A stretch of DNA of 64,000 nt from Larkinella rosea (lineage in GTDB: Bacteria; Bacteroidota; Bacteroidia; Cytophagales; Spirosomataceae). Both the position numbers and the translations under genes were made by a program. The notes beneath the pieces were generated by a model, which was not told the DNA's origin, ran no database searches, and saw only the letters and a program-made list of their open reading frames with translations. The stretch is taken from assembly GCF_003858635.1 (NCBI RefSeq), contig NZ_RQJO01000017.1, positions 62,001 to 126,000 of the forward strand, written 5' to 3'. This document shows positions 3,447 through 60,322 of the stretch, one piece after another. Within the stretch, counting starts at the first letter, position 1; each line of letters starts with the position of its first letter.

Positions 3447-3525
3447 GTACCCACGGACTTTAGTCCGTGTTTTTTGAGCTATTTATTTGGTTACCTCGAA
3501 AACACGGACTAAAGTCCGTGGGTAC
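3447..3525. repeat. REPIN-like perfect inverted repeat, CCCACGGACT family
   Basis: Two 27-bp arms (3447-3473 and 3499-3525) are perfect inverted copies with a 25-nt centre. Each arm contains the self-complementary CACGGACTTTAGTCCGTG. It ends one base before the stop codon of the cupin gene and lies 32 bases upstream of the next start, so any transcript through the operon would fold a strong hairpin here. Confidence 0.9.
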
Positions 3526-5808: not shown

Positions 5809-5819
5809 ATCTGTTTAAA

Positions 5820-5905
5820 GTTTACGGTTTACCGTTTTCAGTTTTCGGGAGCTGACGCATTTCTGTTCATGCGTCAGCTCCCGAAAACCGTAAACGGTAA
5901 ACCGG
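5820..5905. repeat. Long hairpin, TACGGTTTTCGG repeat family
   Basis: A perfect 19-bp stem (5842-5860 with 5869-5887, loop TTCTGTTC) is extended by an outer 13-bp pairing (5827-5839 with 5891-5903). The loop-proximal part contains GACGCAT...ATGCGTCAGC, related to the GCTGGCGCA core of the other copies of this family (19.5, 36.0 and 37.0 kb). It lies between the DUF1080 and DUF4432 genes within the presumed operon. Confidence 0.9.
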
Positions 5906-5915
5906 ACACCGTAAC

Positions 5916-19481: not shown

Positions 19482-19572
19482 GGTTACGGTTTGCGGTATT
19501 CAGTTTACGGTGGTGGAAGCATTCTGTTCCTGCGCCAGCCAACCGTAAACCAAAAACCGCATACCGTAAACT
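19482..19572. repeat. Inverted repeat, TACGGTTTTCGG family
   Basis: Inner arms GTTTACGGT (19503-19511) and ACCGTAAAC (19542-19550) enclose GCATTCTGTTCCTGCGCCAGCC, a conserved core also seen in the copies at 5.8, 36.1 and 37.0 kb. Outer arms around TACGGTTTGCGGTAT (from 19485) pair with ACCGCATACCGTAAAC (19557-19571). It sits in the gap between SusD and the DUF1549/DUF1553 gene. Confidence 0.8.
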
Positions 19573-43901: not shown

Positions 43902-43998
43902 TCTGAACTGGGATTACGCCGATTAAAAGATTAACTGGATTAAATAATAAGTAAAGTCATGCCAGTTAATCCTTTAATCGGTGTAATCCCAGTTCAGA
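43902..43998. repeat. Long inverted repeat, GGGATTACACCGATTAAAGG family
   Basis: Arms 43902-43938 and 43962-43998 (37 bp) pair with two or three mismatches; the unit reads CTGAACTGGGATTACACCGA then TTAAAGGATTAACTGG. The right arm is followed by CTCCTTTTTC, so it may also terminate metF. It ends 12 bases before the next ATG. A single related arm occurs at 46237-46270. Confidence 0.85.
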
Positions 43999-44010: not shown

Positions 44011-44442
44011 ATGAAACCCTTCCTTCTTTTTGTTAGCCTATTCATTAGCTCATTCGCTTTTGCCCAAAATTCTGCCGCTGAAAAAGCTGTTCTGGAAGTT
44101 GAAAAACAGCGCTTCGATGCCCAGGTGACCCGGAATTATGCGGTTTTGGAAAAAACCTTGGGTGATGAGCTGCTCTACAATCATTCCAACGGCAACCAGG
44201 ATACGAAGCAGTCCTATATCCAATCGCTCAAAGACGGCAAACAGTCGTACGAATCTATTGGCGTGCAGGAACAGACGGTTCACGTCTACGGCAACACGGC
44301 GGTGATTACCGGAATTTGCCTGGTCAAAGCAACCAATAACGGGCAGAGCATCAATTCAAAACTGCGCTACACGGACGTCTACGTGAAGAAAGGGGCGCAG
44401 TGGCAAATGGTGGCCTGGCAGTCGCTGAAATTGGCTAACTGA
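44011..44442 (+). CDS. Secreted SnoaL/NTF2-like (DUF4440) protein
   Basis: This 143-residue protein has a signal peptide (MKPFLLFVSLFISSFAFAQ) and a single NTF2-like domain: EKAVLEVEKQRFDAQVTRNYAVLEKTL, then LGDELLYNHSNGN near 50 and KLRYTDVYVKKGAQWQMVAWQS at the end, which is the DUF4440 signature. Members serve as small enzymes, binding proteins or immunity-like modules; no catalytic residues can be assigned. The periplasm is its likely location. It is flanked by two different inverted repeats, one ending 12 bases upstream and another starting at its stop codon, so its mRNA is boxed by hairpins. Confidence 0.85.
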   Translation: MKPFLLFVSLFISSFAFAQNSAAEKAVLEVEKQRFDAQVTRNYAVLEKTLGDELLYNHSNGNQDTKQSYIQSLKDGKQSYESIGVQEQTVHVYGNTAVITGICLVKATNNGQSINSKLRYTDVYVKKGAQWQMVAWQSLKLAN

Positions 44443-44542
44443 ACTATGATTACGGTGATTTTGATGCTGGAAATGATCATTAGATTCCGGTGAAGTGATT
44501 AGTAAAATCACTTTTTATCATCAAAATCACCGTAATCATAGT
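44443..44542. repeat. Inverted repeat, TGATTACGGTGATTTTGATG family
   Basis: Arms 44443-44466 and 44519-44542 are perfect 24-bp inverted copies. The 52-nt centre contains a second hairpin (AAGTGATT/AATCACTT). The left arm begins with the final A of the TGA stop codon of the DUF4440 gene, and the right arm is translated as the C-terminal DYDYGDFDDKK of the thioesterase. Confidence 0.9.
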
Positions 44543-45083
44543 CCACGACGCACCGTTCTTTCTTCAGCAATTCCAGCCCGCCGTCTTCGAGTCGCATGCG
44601 GGATTTTTCGTTGTCGAAATCTTCCTTGTAGGCTTCTTTCAGTTCTTTCCGTTTCATGGCTTCCAGAAACCGCCGGGTTTCGTCGGGCGTTTCGAGCAAC
44701 AGGGGCGGCACTTCGGTCGTTTTGTGGTCGTCGTCGGTGGCTACCATCGTGAAATACGAGGTATTGGTGTGTTTGATGGTTCCGGTACGGACGTTCTCGG
44801 CAATGACTTTGATGCCGATCACCATCGACGTCCGGCCGACATAATTGACCGACGCCATCAGCGAAACCAGTTCACCGACTTCCACGGCCTGCCGGAAATT
44901 GACGCCATCGACTGAAACCGTCACGCAATAAGCCCCCGAATGTTTGGACGCGCAGGCAAAAGCGACTTTGTCCATCAACGACAGCAGAATACCGCCGTGA
45001 ATTTTGCCGCCGAAATTGGCGTAGGAAGGAATCATCAGCTCAGTGAGCGTGGTGCGGGAGGAAGCGACGGATTTGGGGGCCAT
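44508..45083 (-). CDS. Acyl-CoA thioesterase, hotdog fold
   Basis: This protein of 191 residues hydrolyses acyl-CoA thioesters in the cytoplasm (YciA/BFIT-like family). The hotdog domain shows MIPSYANFGGKIHGGILLSLMDKVAFACASKHSG at residues 17-50, with HGG on the central helix, and VTVSVDGVNFRQAVEVGELVSLMASVNYVGRTSM after it. The last 11 residues are encoded by a repeat arm and are probably acquired. The ATG at 45083 begins the domain; an upstream open extension to 45221 is made of repeat sequence and is discarded. Both ends of the gene are bounded by copies of the same inverted repeat family. Confidence 0.9.
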   Translation of the reverse strand: MAPKSVASSRTTLTELMIPSYANFGGKIHGGILLSLMDKVAFACASKHSGAYCVTVSVDGVNFRQAVEVGELVSLMASVNYVGRTSMVIGIKVIAENVRTGTIKHTNTSYFTMVATDDDHKTTEVPPLLLETPDETRRFLEAMKRKELKEAYKEDFDNEKSRMRLEDGGLELLKKERCVVDYDYGDFDDKK

Positions 45084-45088
45084 GAACT

Positions 45089-45178
45089 GACTATGATTAC
45101 GGTGATGGTTATGATGATAATGATAAATCAATTTTTCAAAATAATCATAAGCATCATTGAAATCACCGTAATCAAAGC
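45089..45178. repeat. Inverted repeat, TGATTACGGTGAT family, upstream of thioesterase
   Basis: TGATTACGGTGAT at 45094-45106 pairs with ATCACCGTAATCA at 45162-45174, and the flanks (ATGATGATAATGAT, GCATCATTGA) extend the match imperfectly. It lies directly upstream of the thioesterase ATG; the same family follows the gene at 44443-44542. Confidence 0.8.
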
Positions 45179-45720: not shown

Positions 45721-45829
45721 AAACTCTGCGTAACTCTGCGGTTCTCTGCTCAACTCTGCGAAATAACTTTATAACTTGAAAGCGGTTTCGCGGAGTTAAG
45801 CAGAGAACATTAGAGATTAGCGGAGAAAT
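45721..45829. repeat. Inward-facing pair of GTTTCGCGGAG-family repeats
   Basis: A left copy (45721-45766, ending CTCTGCGAAATAAC) and a right copy (from 45782, GCGGTTTCGCGGAGTTAAG) lie head to head, with the TTTCG ends facing each other across about 15 nt. This is opposite to the outward-facing copies at 49.7-50.2 kb and 60.2 kb. The right copy ends GCGGAGAA directly before the ATG of the methylmalonyl-CoA epimerase gene. Confidence 0.85.
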
Positions 45830-46238
45830 GTTGACGAATGTAGAGCATATTGGGATTGCGGTGAAGAGCCTGGCGGTTTCCAATGACTTGTTTACGAAGC
45901 TGTTGGGCTGTAACCCCTACAAGTCCGAAGCTGTGAAATCGGAGGGCGTGACCACCTCATTTTTCAAGATCAATCAGACGAAAATCGAATTGCTGGAAGC
46001 CACCAACCCCGACAGCCCGATTGCGAAGTTTCTGGAAAAAAAGGGCGAAGGCATCCACCACATCGCCTTTGAAGTCCCGGATATTTACGCCGAAATCGAC
46101 CGACTAAAAACCGAAGGATTTACCCCGCTCAACGAAACCCCCAAACGGGGTGCGGACAACAAACTGGTTTGCTTCCTGCACCCGAAAGAAACGAACGGCG
46201 TGCTGGTGGAGTTGTGTCAGGAGATAAAACCGTCTTGA
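45828..46238 (+). CDS. mce: Methylmalonyl-CoA epimerase (VOC superfamily)
   Basis: This 136-residue metalloenzyme interconverts R- and S-methylmalonyl-CoA in the propionate pathway. It has the two-module vicinal-oxygen-chelate fold: NVEHIGIAVKSLAVSNDLFTKLLG with metal ligand His7, then EGIHHIAFEVPDIYAEIDRLKTEG near 77-100 with a second His, and NGVLVELCQ near the end with a ligand Glu. Length is typical. The start codon lies just after a repeat copy whose GGAG may serve as a Shine-Dalgarno sequence, though spacing of only two bases is short. A B12-dependent mutase is expected elsewhere in the genome. Confidence 0.93.
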   Translation: MLTNVEHIGIAVKSLAVSNDLFTKLLGCNPYKSEAVKSEGVTTSFFKINQTKIELLEATNPDSPIAKFLEKKGEGIHHIAFEVPDIYAEIDRLKTEGFTPLNETPKRGADNKLVCFLHPKETNGVLVELCQEIKPS

Positions 46239-46270
46239 ACCAGGATTACACGGATTAAAGGATTTACAGG
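46237..46270. repeat. Single arm of the GGATTACACCGATTAAAGG repeat family
   Basis: GAACCAGGATTACACGGATT then AAAGGATTTACAGG at 46237-46270 matches one arm of the repeat at 43.9 kb, without an opposite arm. It begins at the stop codon of the methylmalonyl-CoA epimerase gene and borders a truncated coding fragment. Confidence 0.65.
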
Positions 46271-48747: not shown

Positions 48748-49674
48748 TCATTTCCGGTTGTCTTCGCCCGAAACCATCCCAATGTAACTCCAGTAGCGGC
48801 TTTCGGCGATTTCCTCGTTGCCGACAGCGTCTTTGATGGCGCAACCGGGCTCGTTGATGTGCAGGCAGTTGTGAAACCGGCATTGGTTCAGGCGGTCGCG
48901 CATTTCGGGGAAATAGTGACTGATTTCTTCCTTTGCCATGTCGGCTAAACCTAATTCTTTGATACCGGGCGTGTCGATAATGTACGTATCGGGCGCAATT
49001 TCAAACATTTCGGCGAAGGTCGTCGTGTGAACGCCTTTGTTGGCGAAGGTCGAAACTTCACTCGTGCGGAGTTGCAGGTCGGGCGCGACGGCATTGACCA
49101 GCGACGATTTTCCGACGCCCGAATGCCCCGCTAACAGACTGATTTTGTGATCCAGTAAGTTTCGGAAAACGTCGACGTTGGCGCCTTCGGTGGCCGATGT
49201 TTCCAGACAGTTGTACCCAATGCTCTCGTAGAGATCAATGATTTCGCGCTGGTAGTCGAGGGCTTCGTCTTTCAGAATATCGGCTTTGTTGAAAACCAGC
49301 GTGGTCGGGATGCGGAACGATTCGGAGGTCACTAAAAACCGGTCGATGAAACCGAGTGACGTTCGCGGAAATGCCAGCGTCACGATCAAAACCGCCTGGT
49401 CGAGGTTGGCGGCCAGAATGTGTCCGTGGCCGGTTTTATGGACGGATTTTCGGATGATGTAATTCTCGCGGGGCTCGATGTCGGTGATGACCACGGTATT
49501 TTCGAGTTCGTCTTCCAGTTCGAACTGCACGCGGTCGCCCACGGCAATCGGATTGGTGACCTTCAGGCCCTGAATCTTGAATTTGCCTTTCAACCGGGCG
49601 CGGTAAATGTGTCCGTCGTCGTTGCGGACTTCGTACCAGGAACCGGTGGAGCGTATGATTAAGCCAGTTTGCAA
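48748..49674 (-). CDS. rsgA: Ribosome small subunit-dependent GTPase A
   Basis: This 308-residue circularly permuted GTPase helps mature the 30S subunit. An OB-fold occupies residues 1-70 (TGLIIRSTGSWYEVRNDDG), G4 appears first as VFNKADIL near 125, then G1 GHSGVGKSSLVNAV near 185, G3 DTPGIKELGL near 237, and the C-terminal zinc-binding C-x-H pattern CRFHNCLHINEPGCAIKD near 275. It starts with TTG (49672-49674); no ATG precedes it in frame because the GxxExxY gene and its repeat begin four bases upstream. The repeat insertion may have replaced the native upstream region. It converges with the exported TIM-barrel gene. Confidence 0.96.
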   Translation of the reverse strand: MQTGLIIRSTGSWYEVRNDDGHIYRARLKGKFKIQGLKVTNPIAVGDRVQFELEDELENTVVITDIEPRENYIIRKSVHKTGHGHILAANLDQAVLIVTLAFPRTSLGFIDRFLVTSESFRIPTTLVFNKADILKDEALDYQREIIDLYESIGYNCLETSATEGANVDVFRNLLDHKISLLAGHSGVGKSSLVNAVAPDLQLRTSEVSTFANKGVHTTTFAEMFEIAPDTYIIDTPGIKELGLADMAKEEISHYFPEMRDRLNQCRFHNCLHINEPGCAIKDAVGNEEIAESRYWSYIGMVSGEDNRK

Positions 49675-49678
49675 TGCT

Positions 49679-50110
49679 TTACGTGTTGTTTCGCGGAGTT
49701 GAGCGGAGTAAAATAGAGTTAAGCGGAGTTTTTAGATCGGGATTGAGAACTCGGCTTATACCTTCTTTTAACAAGGTTACGTGAAAATTGATTAATAAAC
49801 CTAATCGAAATTGGCCTAACTTTAGATAGGTGAGCAGTTGGGCAAAATGAACATCCGTTAAGGCCTCAACTGTTTTTGTTTCCACCACGATTCGCCCTTC
49901 CACCAATAAATCCATTCGATAACCGTGATTCAACCGAACTTCTTTATAAACAATTGGCATTGGCTTCTCCCGCTCCACATACAACCCATATTCCGATAGT
50001 TCATACTGTAAGCACTCCTGATAAGCGGATTCCAGCAAACCCGGCCCCAGCGCCCGATGAACCTCAATCGCTCCTCTAATAATCTGATACGACAACTTAC
50101 TATCCTCCAT
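49679..50110 (-). CDS. GxxExxY protein, PD-(D/E)XK nuclease-like
   Basis: This 143-residue protein carries the family motif GLLESAY (G24, E27, Y30) in GPGLLESAYQECL and a nuclease-like core D67 (YRMDLLV) with E77-x-K79 (VVETK), the PD-(D/E)XK pattern. Nothing is known firmly of its reaction. It is the only gene inside an element bounded by inverted repeats (49685-49733 and 50114-50158). Its last 17 residues (KTPLNSILLRSTPRNNT) are read from the left repeat, and GGAGG of the right repeat lies three bases before its ATG. It separates rsgA and waaA, genes that are not usually related to it. A mobile-element nuclease role is inferred. Confidence 0.85.
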   Translation of the reverse strand: MEDSKLSYQIIRGAIEVHRALGPGLLESAYQECLQYELSEYGLYVEREKPMPIVYKEVRLNHGYRMDLLVEGRIVVETKTVEALTDVHFAQLLTYLKLGQFRLGLLINFHVTLLKEGISRVLNPDLKTPLNSILLRSTPRNNT

Positions 50111-50158
50111 ATACCTCCGCTAAACTCAGTGAAACTCTGCTTATCTCCGCGAAACAAC
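49685..50158. mobile_element. Candidate GxxExxY element with inverted terminal repeats
   Basis: The two ends, GTTGTTTCGCGGAGTTGAGC (from 49685, about 48 bp) and the inverse of GTTGTTTCGCGGAGATAAGC (ending 50158, about 45 bp), point outward and share GTTGTTTCGCGGAG plus internal GCGGAG units. Between them lies only the GxxExxY gene. The right end supplies the last codons and stop of waaA (VVSRR). I could not identify a flanking target-site duplication. The same end sequences occur without a gene at 60.2 kb, as expected for a non-autonomous derivative. Confidence 0.65.
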
Positions 50159-51388
50159 CGTGCCCCTCACGATTTCCATCACTTTAGACGTAGCACCCGT
50201 ATTCAGAGTAACGTAATCACCGGAAATCGCTGAAGCCTTCGATGGGTCTGCATAAATCCGCCGGAAAACCGTATTGAGTTGATCGGAGTCGGAAACCGGA
50301 AAAGCCGCCCCGGCCTTCACCAGATCGACCGCTTCCTGAAACTTGCCGTAGTTTGGCCCGAAAAACAGCGGCATCCGAAACGTGGCCGCTTCCAGAATAT
50401 TATGAAGCCCTTTCCCAAACGCGCCACCGATGTAGGCAAATTCGCCGTATTGATACAGCGACGATAGCATGCCGACGTTGTCGATGATCAACGTGCGAAA
50501 GGGGTGGAGGGTTGAATGGTTTCCTGCCTCCGAAAACCGCACGGTTTGGCCGGGGAGCTGGCTGCGCCAGCGCTCAATTTCGTCGTCGTGGATTTCGTGG
50601 GGCGCAATGATGACTTTCAACGGCTGGTCGAATTGCTTCAGGAACGGAATCAGCACGTCCATGTCAGCCTGCCACGCGCTGCCGACCACCAGCAGGGGCG
50701 TGTCGGCTTTAAAATTCCGGGCAATCGGAATGATTTTTTTAGCGTCGGCTACCTGCTTCACCCGGTCAAACCGTGTATCACCGGCCAGTGTCACGTTGGT
50801 CACGCCAATGCTTCTCAGCAGATCGACCGATTCCTGATTTTGCACCAGAATGTGATTGAAAAACCGCAGGAAATTTCGATAAAAACCGCCATACGGTTTG
50901 AAAAAGATCTGATCGGGGCGGAAAATGGCCGAAAACGAAAAAACCGGGATGTGCCGGGCGTTGAGTTCGCGCAGGTAGTGATACCAGAATTCGTACTTGA
51001 TAAAAAACGCAACTGCCGGTTTAACACAATCGATAAATTGGCGGGCGTTGGCGGGCGTATCGAACGGCAGATAGAAAATATAATCCGCACCGGCGTAGTT
51101 TTTCCGGACTTCGTAGCCCGAGGGCGAGAAGAACGTCAGCAGAATTTTATAACCGGGATACTGTTGCCGAAAAGCCTCCATGACCGGTCGTCCCTGTTCA
51201 AATTCGCCCAATGAAGCGGCATGAAACCAGGCAATTGGTGCTGCATTATCAGCCAATTTTGCGTTAATTTGTTGTAACCATCCATCCCGTCCCCGAATCG
51301 CCAGTCGGGCTTTGGGGTGAAAGAAAGCCGCAACCTGGAGGGTGGCCTGATAAAGTCGGATGGACGTTGTATAGAGTGCGGAAAGCAA
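50141..51388 (-). CDS. waaA: 3-deoxy-D-manno-octulosonic acid transferase
   Basis: This 415-residue inner-membrane-associated glycosyltransferase adds Kdo to lipid A precursor. Motifs are WFHAASLGEFEQGRPVMEAF near 55-75 (catalytic Glu in SLGE), KYEFWYHYLRELN near 130, VVGSAWQADMDVLIPFL near 235, APHEIHDDEIERW near 265, and the nucleotide-sugar site GGAFGKGLHNILEAATF near 325. The start appears to be TTG (51386-51388), since no ATG lies close upstream. The last residues VVSRR and the stop codon come from the GxxExxY element end, so the native C-terminus was probably altered by insertion, with the catalytic part intact. Confidence 0.95.
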   Translation of the reverse strand: MLSALYTTSIRLYQATLQVAAFFHPKARLAIRGRDGWLQQINAKLADNAAPIAWFHAASLGEFEQGRPVMEAFRQQYPGYKILLTFFSPSGYEVRKNYAGADYIFYLPFDTPANARQFIDCVKPAVAFFIKYEFWYHYLRELNARHIPVFSFSAIFRPDQIFFKPYGGFYRNFLRFFNHILVQNQESVDLLRSIGVTNVTLAGDTRFDRVKQVADAKKIIPIARNFKADTPLLVVGSAWQADMDVLIPFLKQFDQPLKVIIAPHEIHDDEIERWRSQLPGQTVRFSEAGNHSTLHPFRTLIIDNVGMLSSLYQYGEFAYIGGAFGKGLHNILEAATFRMPLFFGPNYGKFQEAVDLVKAGAAFPVSDSDQLNTVFRRIYADPSKASAISGDYVTLNTGATSKVMEIVRGTVVSRR

Positions 51389-60215: not shown

Positions 60216-60234
60216 GTTAAAAAGGTTGTTTCGC

Positions 60235-60322
60235 GGAGTTAAGCGGAGTAAAAAGAGTTACGCAGAGGTTTTATTTATCTCCGCTCAACTCTTTTTAACT
60301 CCGCTTAACTCCGCGAAATAGT
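60235..60322. repeat. Gene-less GTTGTTTCGCGGAG element (outward-facing repeat pair)
   Basis: The left arm from 60235 (GTTGTTTCGCGGAGTTAAGC, about 48 bp) matches the left end of the GxxExxY element with about five mismatches, and the right arm (60278-60322) is its inverse with CTCCGCGAAATAG at the outer end. A few bases separate the arms. It lies between SusD and the 840-residue protein gene in the polysaccharide locus. It resembles a miniature, non-autonomous form of the element at 49.7 kb. Confidence 0.85.

Follow-up and report, generated by a model that had tools for sequence, protein, structure and literature searches.

A GxxExxY gene of Larkinella rosea between inverted arms, and the probable partnership of its family with dispersed hairpin repeats

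The GxxExxY gene of the window and the hairpins around it

The window, i.e., the whole analysed stretch of 64,000 nucleotides of Larkinella rosea DNA, carries a small gene between two inverted arms, together with hairpins of the same and of other repeat families (as shown in Table 1). The initial annotation had described a lone GxxExxY gene with E27, D67 and E77-x-K79, and the gene was found as such: its product is a full match to TIGR04256 "GxxExxY protein" (E 1.7e-43, 147.7 bits against a cut-off of 35) and PF13366 PDDEXK_3 (E 1.8e-40, 138.4 bits against a cut-off of 22), and E27, D67, E77 and K79 are unchanged across 19 diverse relatives, with D67, E77 and K79 also invariant in a set of 75 sequences. 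The AlphaFold model has a pLDDT of 90.1, and its predicted alpha/beta core matches PD-(D/E)XK folds, lying, among the families listed, near Cas4, lambda exonuclease and Hjc; a Foldseek search with this model gave no match at E ≤ 0.001, and a sequence search of the PDB gave no relative at E ≤ 1. By Pfam and NCBIfam, PDDEXK_3 and GxxExxY are the only assignments of the protein and no transposase match was obtained. From these family matches and residues, it is classed as a member of the PD-(D/E)XK superfamily and a putative nuclease. The family is large, with at least 8000 significant matches (8000 of the 8000 candidates scored). In four genomes (G174, G186, G202 and G311), GxxExxY-like matches lie within open frames of 883–896 residues, which may represent fusions of the domain with a long protein. 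Viral contigs, scanned once with the window protein alone, gave 11 pattern matches with no relative among them, and a virus link of the gene was dropped.

Table 1. Positions of genes, arms and hairpins in the window.
Feature	Position	Strand	Remarks
Left neighbour ORF	48748..49674	(-)	putative rsgA (label of the initial annotation)
GxxExxY protein gene	49679..50110	(-)	143 aa; PD-(D/E)XK residues D67, E77, K79, with E27 and Y30
Left inverted arm, class 1 type A	49685..49728	(+)	GCGGAG units at a spacing of about 10 bp; shares sequence with the 3′ end of the gene
Right inverted arm, class 1 type A	50115..50158	(-)	inner end GGAGG; outer end in the next ORF
Right neighbour ORF	50141..51388	(-)	putative waaA (label of the initial annotation); stop inside the repeat
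Gene-less hairpin, repeat family of the window gene	60225..60322	.	ssDNA fold -36 kcal/mol, z -10.2
Tail-to-tail pair of arms, same family (outer ends towards each other)	45724..45825	.	
Class-2 hairpin (TCTGAAC, GATT units)	43902..43998	.	class that flanks the other GxxExxY gene of the genome, L002
Class-2-like hairpin	44440..44545	.	TGAACTATGATTACGGTGATTTTGATG; by eye
Class-2-like hairpin	45089..45177	.	GACTATGATTACGGTGATGGTTATGATG; by eye
Solitary class-2 arm	46236..46270	(+)	

The enclosure of the gene by inverted repeats, proposed earlier, is confirmed by two arms of 44 nt that are 80% complementary and 386 nt apart, and the window ORF list holds no second gene between them, in agreement with the earlier reading that nothing else lies inside. 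Both arms are shared with coding sequence. The downstream arm encodes about 15 C-terminal residues of the window protein, and the outer part of the upstream arm supplies the final five codons (VVSRR) and the stop of the putative waaA; in the element-free genome G016, the counterpart of this neighbour protein has a different C-terminal end. The GGAGG at the inner end of the upstream arm lies three bases 5′ of the ATG and is a possible ribosome-binding site.

The 14-mer GTTGTTTCGCGGAG has three exact copies in the window, i.e., in both flanks of the gene and at 60225. When three mismatches are allowed, it is found 13 times against a chance mean of 10.06, which is no excess, and this loose consensus was discarded. 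Since the 14-mer count at three mismatches equals chance, significance rests on the longer arm end TTTCGCRGAGTTNAGCRGAG. The two further occurrences of these ends claimed at the outset were both recovered: the gene-less copy at 60.2 kb is a complete hairpin, and the other arrangement at 45.7 kb consists of two arms placed tail to tail.

Class-2 repeats also occur in the window. A 24-base class-2 string has three window matches at up to three mismatches (expected 0), belonging to the class-2 hairpin and to the solitary arm of Table 1. Two other hairpins, at 2269–2382 and 3447–3525, have GGACTTTAGTCCGTG in common and form another family with no partner identified; those at 5815–5914 and 19484–19569 are built from TTTACGGT-like units and are possibly a third class with phased units. 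A scan of 43000–64000 for RNA families gave 22 matches at E ≤ 10, all far under the gathering scores, the best being MIR774 (E 0.0024) on the class-2-like hairpin at 44443–44542. These sub-gathering matches were taken for chance hits of hairpins, and an RNA-family identity of the hairpins in this part of the window was rejected. In the same kind of scan of 12 loci, a single match reached the gathering score, namely Flavo-1 RNA (RF01705, 74.6 bits) at 3508–3583 of L131 from Flavobacterium phragmitis, which by eye is unrelated to the repeats.

Repeat classes in the host genome and beside GxxExxY genes of other bacteria

In the host genome (8.17 Mb in 18 contigs), the 20-base arm end TTTCGCRGAGTTNAGCRGAG was found in 82 + 83 copies on the two strands (165 in total) at up to two mismatches, and its reversed sequence in 0 + 0; the consensus of the arm end is GTTGTTTCGCGG. 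Protein similarity, at 94–95% to proteins of three Larkinella species, places the host in this genus or close to it. Among 64 own-genome loci, which are 24 distinct ones plus 40 taken from the listed hits and thus not a random sample, facing arm pairs are present in 56, and the eight without them include two tail-to-tail loci. The gene-less copies are often hairpins of about 95 bp, with 49 of the 56 facing pairs spanning 79–100 bp. The other GxxExxY gene of the host (L002) lies between inverted copies of another repeat, GGGATTACACGGATTGAAGGATTAAGAGGA. A GC-rich near-palindrome, CGGGGCCGCCCGGC, breaks an arm in L305 and L322 of the own genome and in L400 of G108, and is perhaps a small insertion targeting the repeats.

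TIGR04256 is matched in 106 of 150 genomes of the host's family. For the survey of flanks, the contigs of the best 80 of 582 confirmed relatives, mostly Bacteroidota and obtained via an 11-member alignment, were used; 79 loci could be scored (L121 is too short), and an inverted-repeat score of at least 16 was taken as the criterion. The check on many Bacteroidota genomes proposed with the original claim came out in its favour: inverted flanks at this score enclose 57 of the 79 GxxExxY loci, as against 1 of 79 with a reversed flank, 1.0% of 13,378 positions drawn at random from the same contigs, and 33 of the 760 other ORFs there with a length of 300 bp or more. The score was missed by 22 of the 79 genes, and when 31 own and same-family loci were viewed by eye, several (e.g., L043, L044, L047 and L051) showed no clear inverted repeat. 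Direct repeats also reached 16 at 22 of the 79 loci, which we ascribe in part to gene duplicates or to arms in tandem. Beyond Bacteroidota, the score is reached at L085, L096, L097, L118, L125 and L126, of which L085, L096, L097, L125 and L126 include Melioribacter-like, Planctomycetota, Anaerolineae and one Acidobacteria loci, and lies below 16 at L116, L122 and L130. It is also reached at L106, to which no phylum is assigned, and at L139 on a "Rhizobium" MAG contig, which is perhaps a mis-binned Flavobacterium piece. Chance and composition as the source of the repeats were rejected by the reversed, random-placement and other-ORF controls.

Two arm plans recur. Class-1 arms begin with TTAACC, followed by CRCARAG-like units 2–6 bases apart. 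Class-2 arms begin with GTCTGAAC, followed by units with GATT ends, and were met among Bacteroidota relatives of the L002 gene, where 30 loci were sampled and 27 parsed (the L002 gene itself included); here, the inverted score is reached in 16 of 27 (reversed, 1 of 27) and missed in 11 of 27. The common layout is a leader and about four units, 9–13 bp apart, i.e., near one turn of DNA. In plasmid records, the genes of Gemmatirosa, Bacteroides and Bernardetia have class-1 arms, the Treponema gene has only a short match at the level of the control, and the Sphingomonas gene has a repeat on one side only. Beside a gene from Fusobacteria, which by eye resembles clade C, the AATCCGTG-type repeat is direct, and no inverted one exceeds the control.

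The class of the repeat was then set against the clade of the protein, each protein being assigned by its best BLAST score to three references (the window gene for A, L051 for B and L002 for C). From 212 genes parsed, with 21 loci dropped, 196 are distinct, and in 192 of these the flanks reach 120 bases or more, giving a test set of 141 clade A/B and 51 clade C genes, mostly from Bacteroidota. With no mismatch, class 1 adjoins 85 of 141 A/B and 0 of 51 C genes, and class 2 adjoins 0 of 141 and 26 of 51, respectively; the reversed controls give 1 of 141 and 0 of 51 for class 1, and 0 of 141 and 0 of 51 for class 2. With one mismatch, class 1 rises to 115 of 141 A/B and 0 of 51 C genes (reversed, 12 and 3), and class 2 to 3 of 141 and 37 of 51 (reversed, 3 and 2), which still leaves 14 of the 51 clade C genes with no class 2. 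An earlier class-1 pattern, used with two mismatches, had matched 58 of 132 clade A genes when reversed; it was judged too loose and was tightened. In 26 genomes that hold clade C together with another clade, 49 genes have the expected class only, 17 neither, one both, and none the wrong class only, by the one-mismatch patterns. Since the pairing holds inside these 26 genomes, it is not explained by host composition. The class patterns were written after inspection of L068–L147 and L178–L203, so the class-2 pattern is drawn from part of its own test data (L178–L203); within the two-clade genomes, the A/B genes were fetched after the patterns had been set, and the C genes are partly the source of class 2. 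In this mostly Bacteroidota sample, then, the repeat class follows the protein clade.

Gene and repeats also go together between genomes. In 296 Bacteroidota genomes surveyed with the class-1 pattern only, 154 with and 142 without a TIGR04256 match, at least one copy is present in 82 of 154 and 7 of 142, respectively (89 of 296 overall), and the odds ratio stratified by family is 11.6 (p 5e-6); the reversed pattern has three hits in all 296 genomes. At three or more copies, the counts are 47 of 154 and 1 of 142 (OR 62), which bears out for class 1 the expectation that gene-less genomes rarely carry the repeats. The 72 gene-bearing genomes without the class-1 pattern include that of the window itself, which has a variant arm. 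TIGR04256 matches number up to 12 per Bacteroidota genome, a count in which copies of one kind and different kinds are pooled. In 15 further genomes or records with GxxExxY genes, mostly outside Bacteroidota and scanned at up to one mismatch, the Anaerolineae genome of L126 has 129 copies (control 2), a Gemmatirosa plasmid 67 (control 1), and the next richest 42 (control 1) and 25 (control 3); three plasmid records have none, and the L130 genome has one against two in the control. That is to say, genomes without the gene seldom hold dispersed gene-less copies, and genomes with the gene do.

It is therefore very probable that the GxxExxY gene and the repeats are partners in one system, and the clade-matched repeats offer a testable substrate for the GxxExxY family and a candidate source for orphan repeats. 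The reading that the flanks are merely terminators or regulatory hairpins around a small stand-alone gene, with no functional link, can point to elements occupying spots where element-free orthologues have terminator-like hairpins (see below). It is hard to hold and scarcely credible in view of the flanked 57 of 79 genes against 33 of 760 other ORFs, the agreement of class with clade, and the co-occurrence of gene and repeats between genomes. It is also conceivable that another enzyme spreads or keeps the repeats, and that GxxExxY is a control or surveillance protein which is seated in an element and cuts or restrains the hairpins of its own class. The predicted fold, near Cas4, lambda exonuclease and Hjc, would suit the clearing of DNA structures, and the window has other hairpin families with no partner identified; against this, the gene sits between the arms with no second gene there in the window, and both classes track the protein clade, so that this role is regarded as quite improbable.

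Orthologous sites in Larkinella and a proposed mechanism

For the statistics of the arms, 44 standard elements of the host genome were used, five irregular ones of the 49 having been set aside. The two arms of an element are more similar to each other than arms of different elements (28.2 vs 25.1; 0 of 5000 permutations), and the own partner is the best or tied best match in 14 of 44 elements. Change on both sides was found in 9 of 29 arm pairs, against a shuffled mean of 5.8 (reached in 5 of 500 shuffles). The covariation between arms amounts to 41 double-changed cells against 19.9 in shuffles, which related copies can inflate, and 1 to 6 in slid controls. A preference for pairing at the RNA level was not found, with 52 G.U and 44 A.C cells (counted by eye), i.e., G.U is not favoured. 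In the 44 elements, no target-site duplication was detected at end offsets of -6 to 6 and lengths of 2–9, and the inverted similarity of the outer flanks past the element ends is not over chance (p 0.80); in L020 and L024, the inverted symmetry extends further outwards, with local scores of 10 and 15. Beside the elements, runs of at least four A or T are mildly enriched (39% and 32%, against 19% each in shuffles). The gene-orientation context of the elements was set aside, its longest-open-frame basis conflicting with single-site readings.

At the rsgA-waaA junction of nine Larkinella genomes, six have an intact-looking gene and two a damaged one (an in-frame stop in G058 and an internal loss in G108). 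The idea of a gene that moves by itself is not supported by this distribution, eight of the nine genomes having the gene or its damaged form at the same junction. The search for an empty junction proposed earlier found one in G016, a genome with no TIGR04256 match and without both local repeat types: type-A ends number 66–175 and type-B ends 7–91 in the eight other genomes, and 0 and 0 in G016. Hybrid arms may be counted under both patterns, and the gene-free comparison consists of this one genome. The junction arms are of type A on both sides in five genomes and of type B on both sides in G058, G100 and G108. The type of the gene does not predict the commoner repeat type of the genome, as G100 with a B gene has 77 A and 12 B ends, and G043 with an A gene has 66 A and 71 B ends; this was counted against a tight A/B specificity.

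Nine type-A elements of the own genome were traced across the genus by fetching 60 stretches, of which 51 were tabulated at eight sites; site L028 (eight stretches, mostly cut off-centre) and one G016 stretch of L020 with uncertain orthology were left out. The type of an arm was taken from the closeness of its 20-base end to the A or B pattern. The 42 occupied orthologous places in other species, among which the eight type-A reference elements of G000 are not counted, comprise 31 AA, 11 BB and no mixed ones, and at six of the eight sites the type, A or B, differs between species. Nine orthologous places are empty, six of them in G016. Eight of the nine element-free places were folded, and all form strong hairpins of -17 to -35 kcal/mol, values that stand without a shuffled control; by eye, several have A- and T-runs like those of intrinsic terminators. 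At the L011 site, three genomes (G091, C15:339854-349518; G082, C12; G108, C266) have about 9 kb between the flanks, and in G091 this stretch is bordered by an element on either side. Elements may mediate deletions, because G000 has a single element where the others hold these 9 kb.

We infer that the window protein acts on the repeats. It is proposed that a GxxExxY protein binds those phased units that belong to its own class, where the spacing of the units near one turn suggests several protomers along a single face of the DNA, and that it would cut the hairpin or cruciform formed by two facing arms. The break would be repaired by copying another element, so that elements could replace one another in place and could spread to spots already holding a hairpin, e.g., transcription terminators. 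A homing-endonuclease gene protects its own target site; in a similar manner, the gene copy in the loop separates the arms by about 390 bp and may thereby escape cutting. Cutting and repair from another copy would account for the missing target duplications, the joint change of the arms, the in-place switching of types and the terminator-like spots. A partnership in which the nuclease drives the turnover of the repeats by cutting and copying in some form is judged rather probable, and the homing-like detail as told above falls a little short of an even chance. The in-place switching could instead result from elements inserting again and again at the same hot spots.

The main rival to cutting and repair is a RAYT-like transposition, in which the protein would cut out the two-arm hairpin, perhaps in single-stranded form at the replication fork, and place it at another site; the gene at its fixed locus would then be the domesticated source enzyme and the hairpins its non-autonomous offspring. 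The arrangement is that of REPIN/RAYT (inverted doublets, a single Larkinella locus and cognate classes), and species differ in the presence of elements (L013 is absent from G100 and G043, and L011 from G071), but the enzyme does not belong to the tyrosine HUH transposases, a target duplication was not found, and the switching of both arms in place is unexpected from insertion alone. This transposition is considered unlikely, and cutting and repair is the reading kept here. In its widest form, it would make the GxxExxY proteins the engines of widespread, unnamed selfish hairpins of bacteria, which recognise their arms clade by clade, cut them, overwrite them by repair, spread them onto host terminators and leave the host with terminator service; this generalisation is tentative and still somewhat more doubtful than the homing-like detail. 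The matched clades and classes make the specificity directly testable, and the system points to an undescribed way for bacterial repeats to arise and persist.

Comparison with known systems

In the literature searched, outside of which lay most subscription papers and all preprints, GxxExxY appears as an annotation only and a function was not found. PF13366 occurs only in listings, no mention of the names PDDEXK_3 and TIGR04256 was found, and the repeat strings turned up only in an incidental PCR primer in Bacteroides fragilis. An earlier description of the partnership of gene and repeat was not found in this literature.

The window protein differs from the nucleases of the Cas4, RecB and lambda-exonuclease families: it has 143 residues against about 200, is without a sequence relative in the PDB at E ≤ 1, and has one cysteine, which is why it does not possess the four-cysteine iron–sulphur cluster of Cas4. 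As to homing, the homing endonuclease gene is a stand-alone nuclease gene inside its target, which spreads by repair copying. The GxxExxY gene is likewise a nuclease-like gene inside a presumed target, with spread by repair copying proposed; however, its presumed target is a dispersed hairpin and not one conserved gene. The MITEs of DNA transposons are also short, non-autonomous elements whose terminal inverted repeats are shared with a gene-bearing copy, whereas the GxxExxY elements are without target-site duplication and the enclosed gene is not a transposase by Pfam and NCBIfam.

A close parallel is REPIN/RAYT, for which the published accounts (PMC3116915, PMC3733652, PMC8266576) describe dispersed palindromic doublets whose repeats also flank the partner gene, and several partner–repeat types. 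In the same way, the GxxExxY partner gene is flanked by its repeat, and the repeats are mainly inverted doublets (56 of 64, at loci not randomly chosen). The parallel drawn in the initial annotation thus stands for the arrangement and fails for the enzyme, the GxxExxY partner being by its family matches a putative PD-(D/E)XK protein and not a Y1 HUH tyrosine transposase. The arms differ as well: the GxxExxY-linked arm has about 40 bp with roughly four phased units, and by eye its ends GTTGTTTCGCGG, TTAACC and GTCTGAAC carry no GTAG or CGTC tag. If the proposed partnership is true, the question raised by REPIN/RAYT, i.e., how short palindromes persist in compact genomes, would have a second answer that is unrelated to the first.
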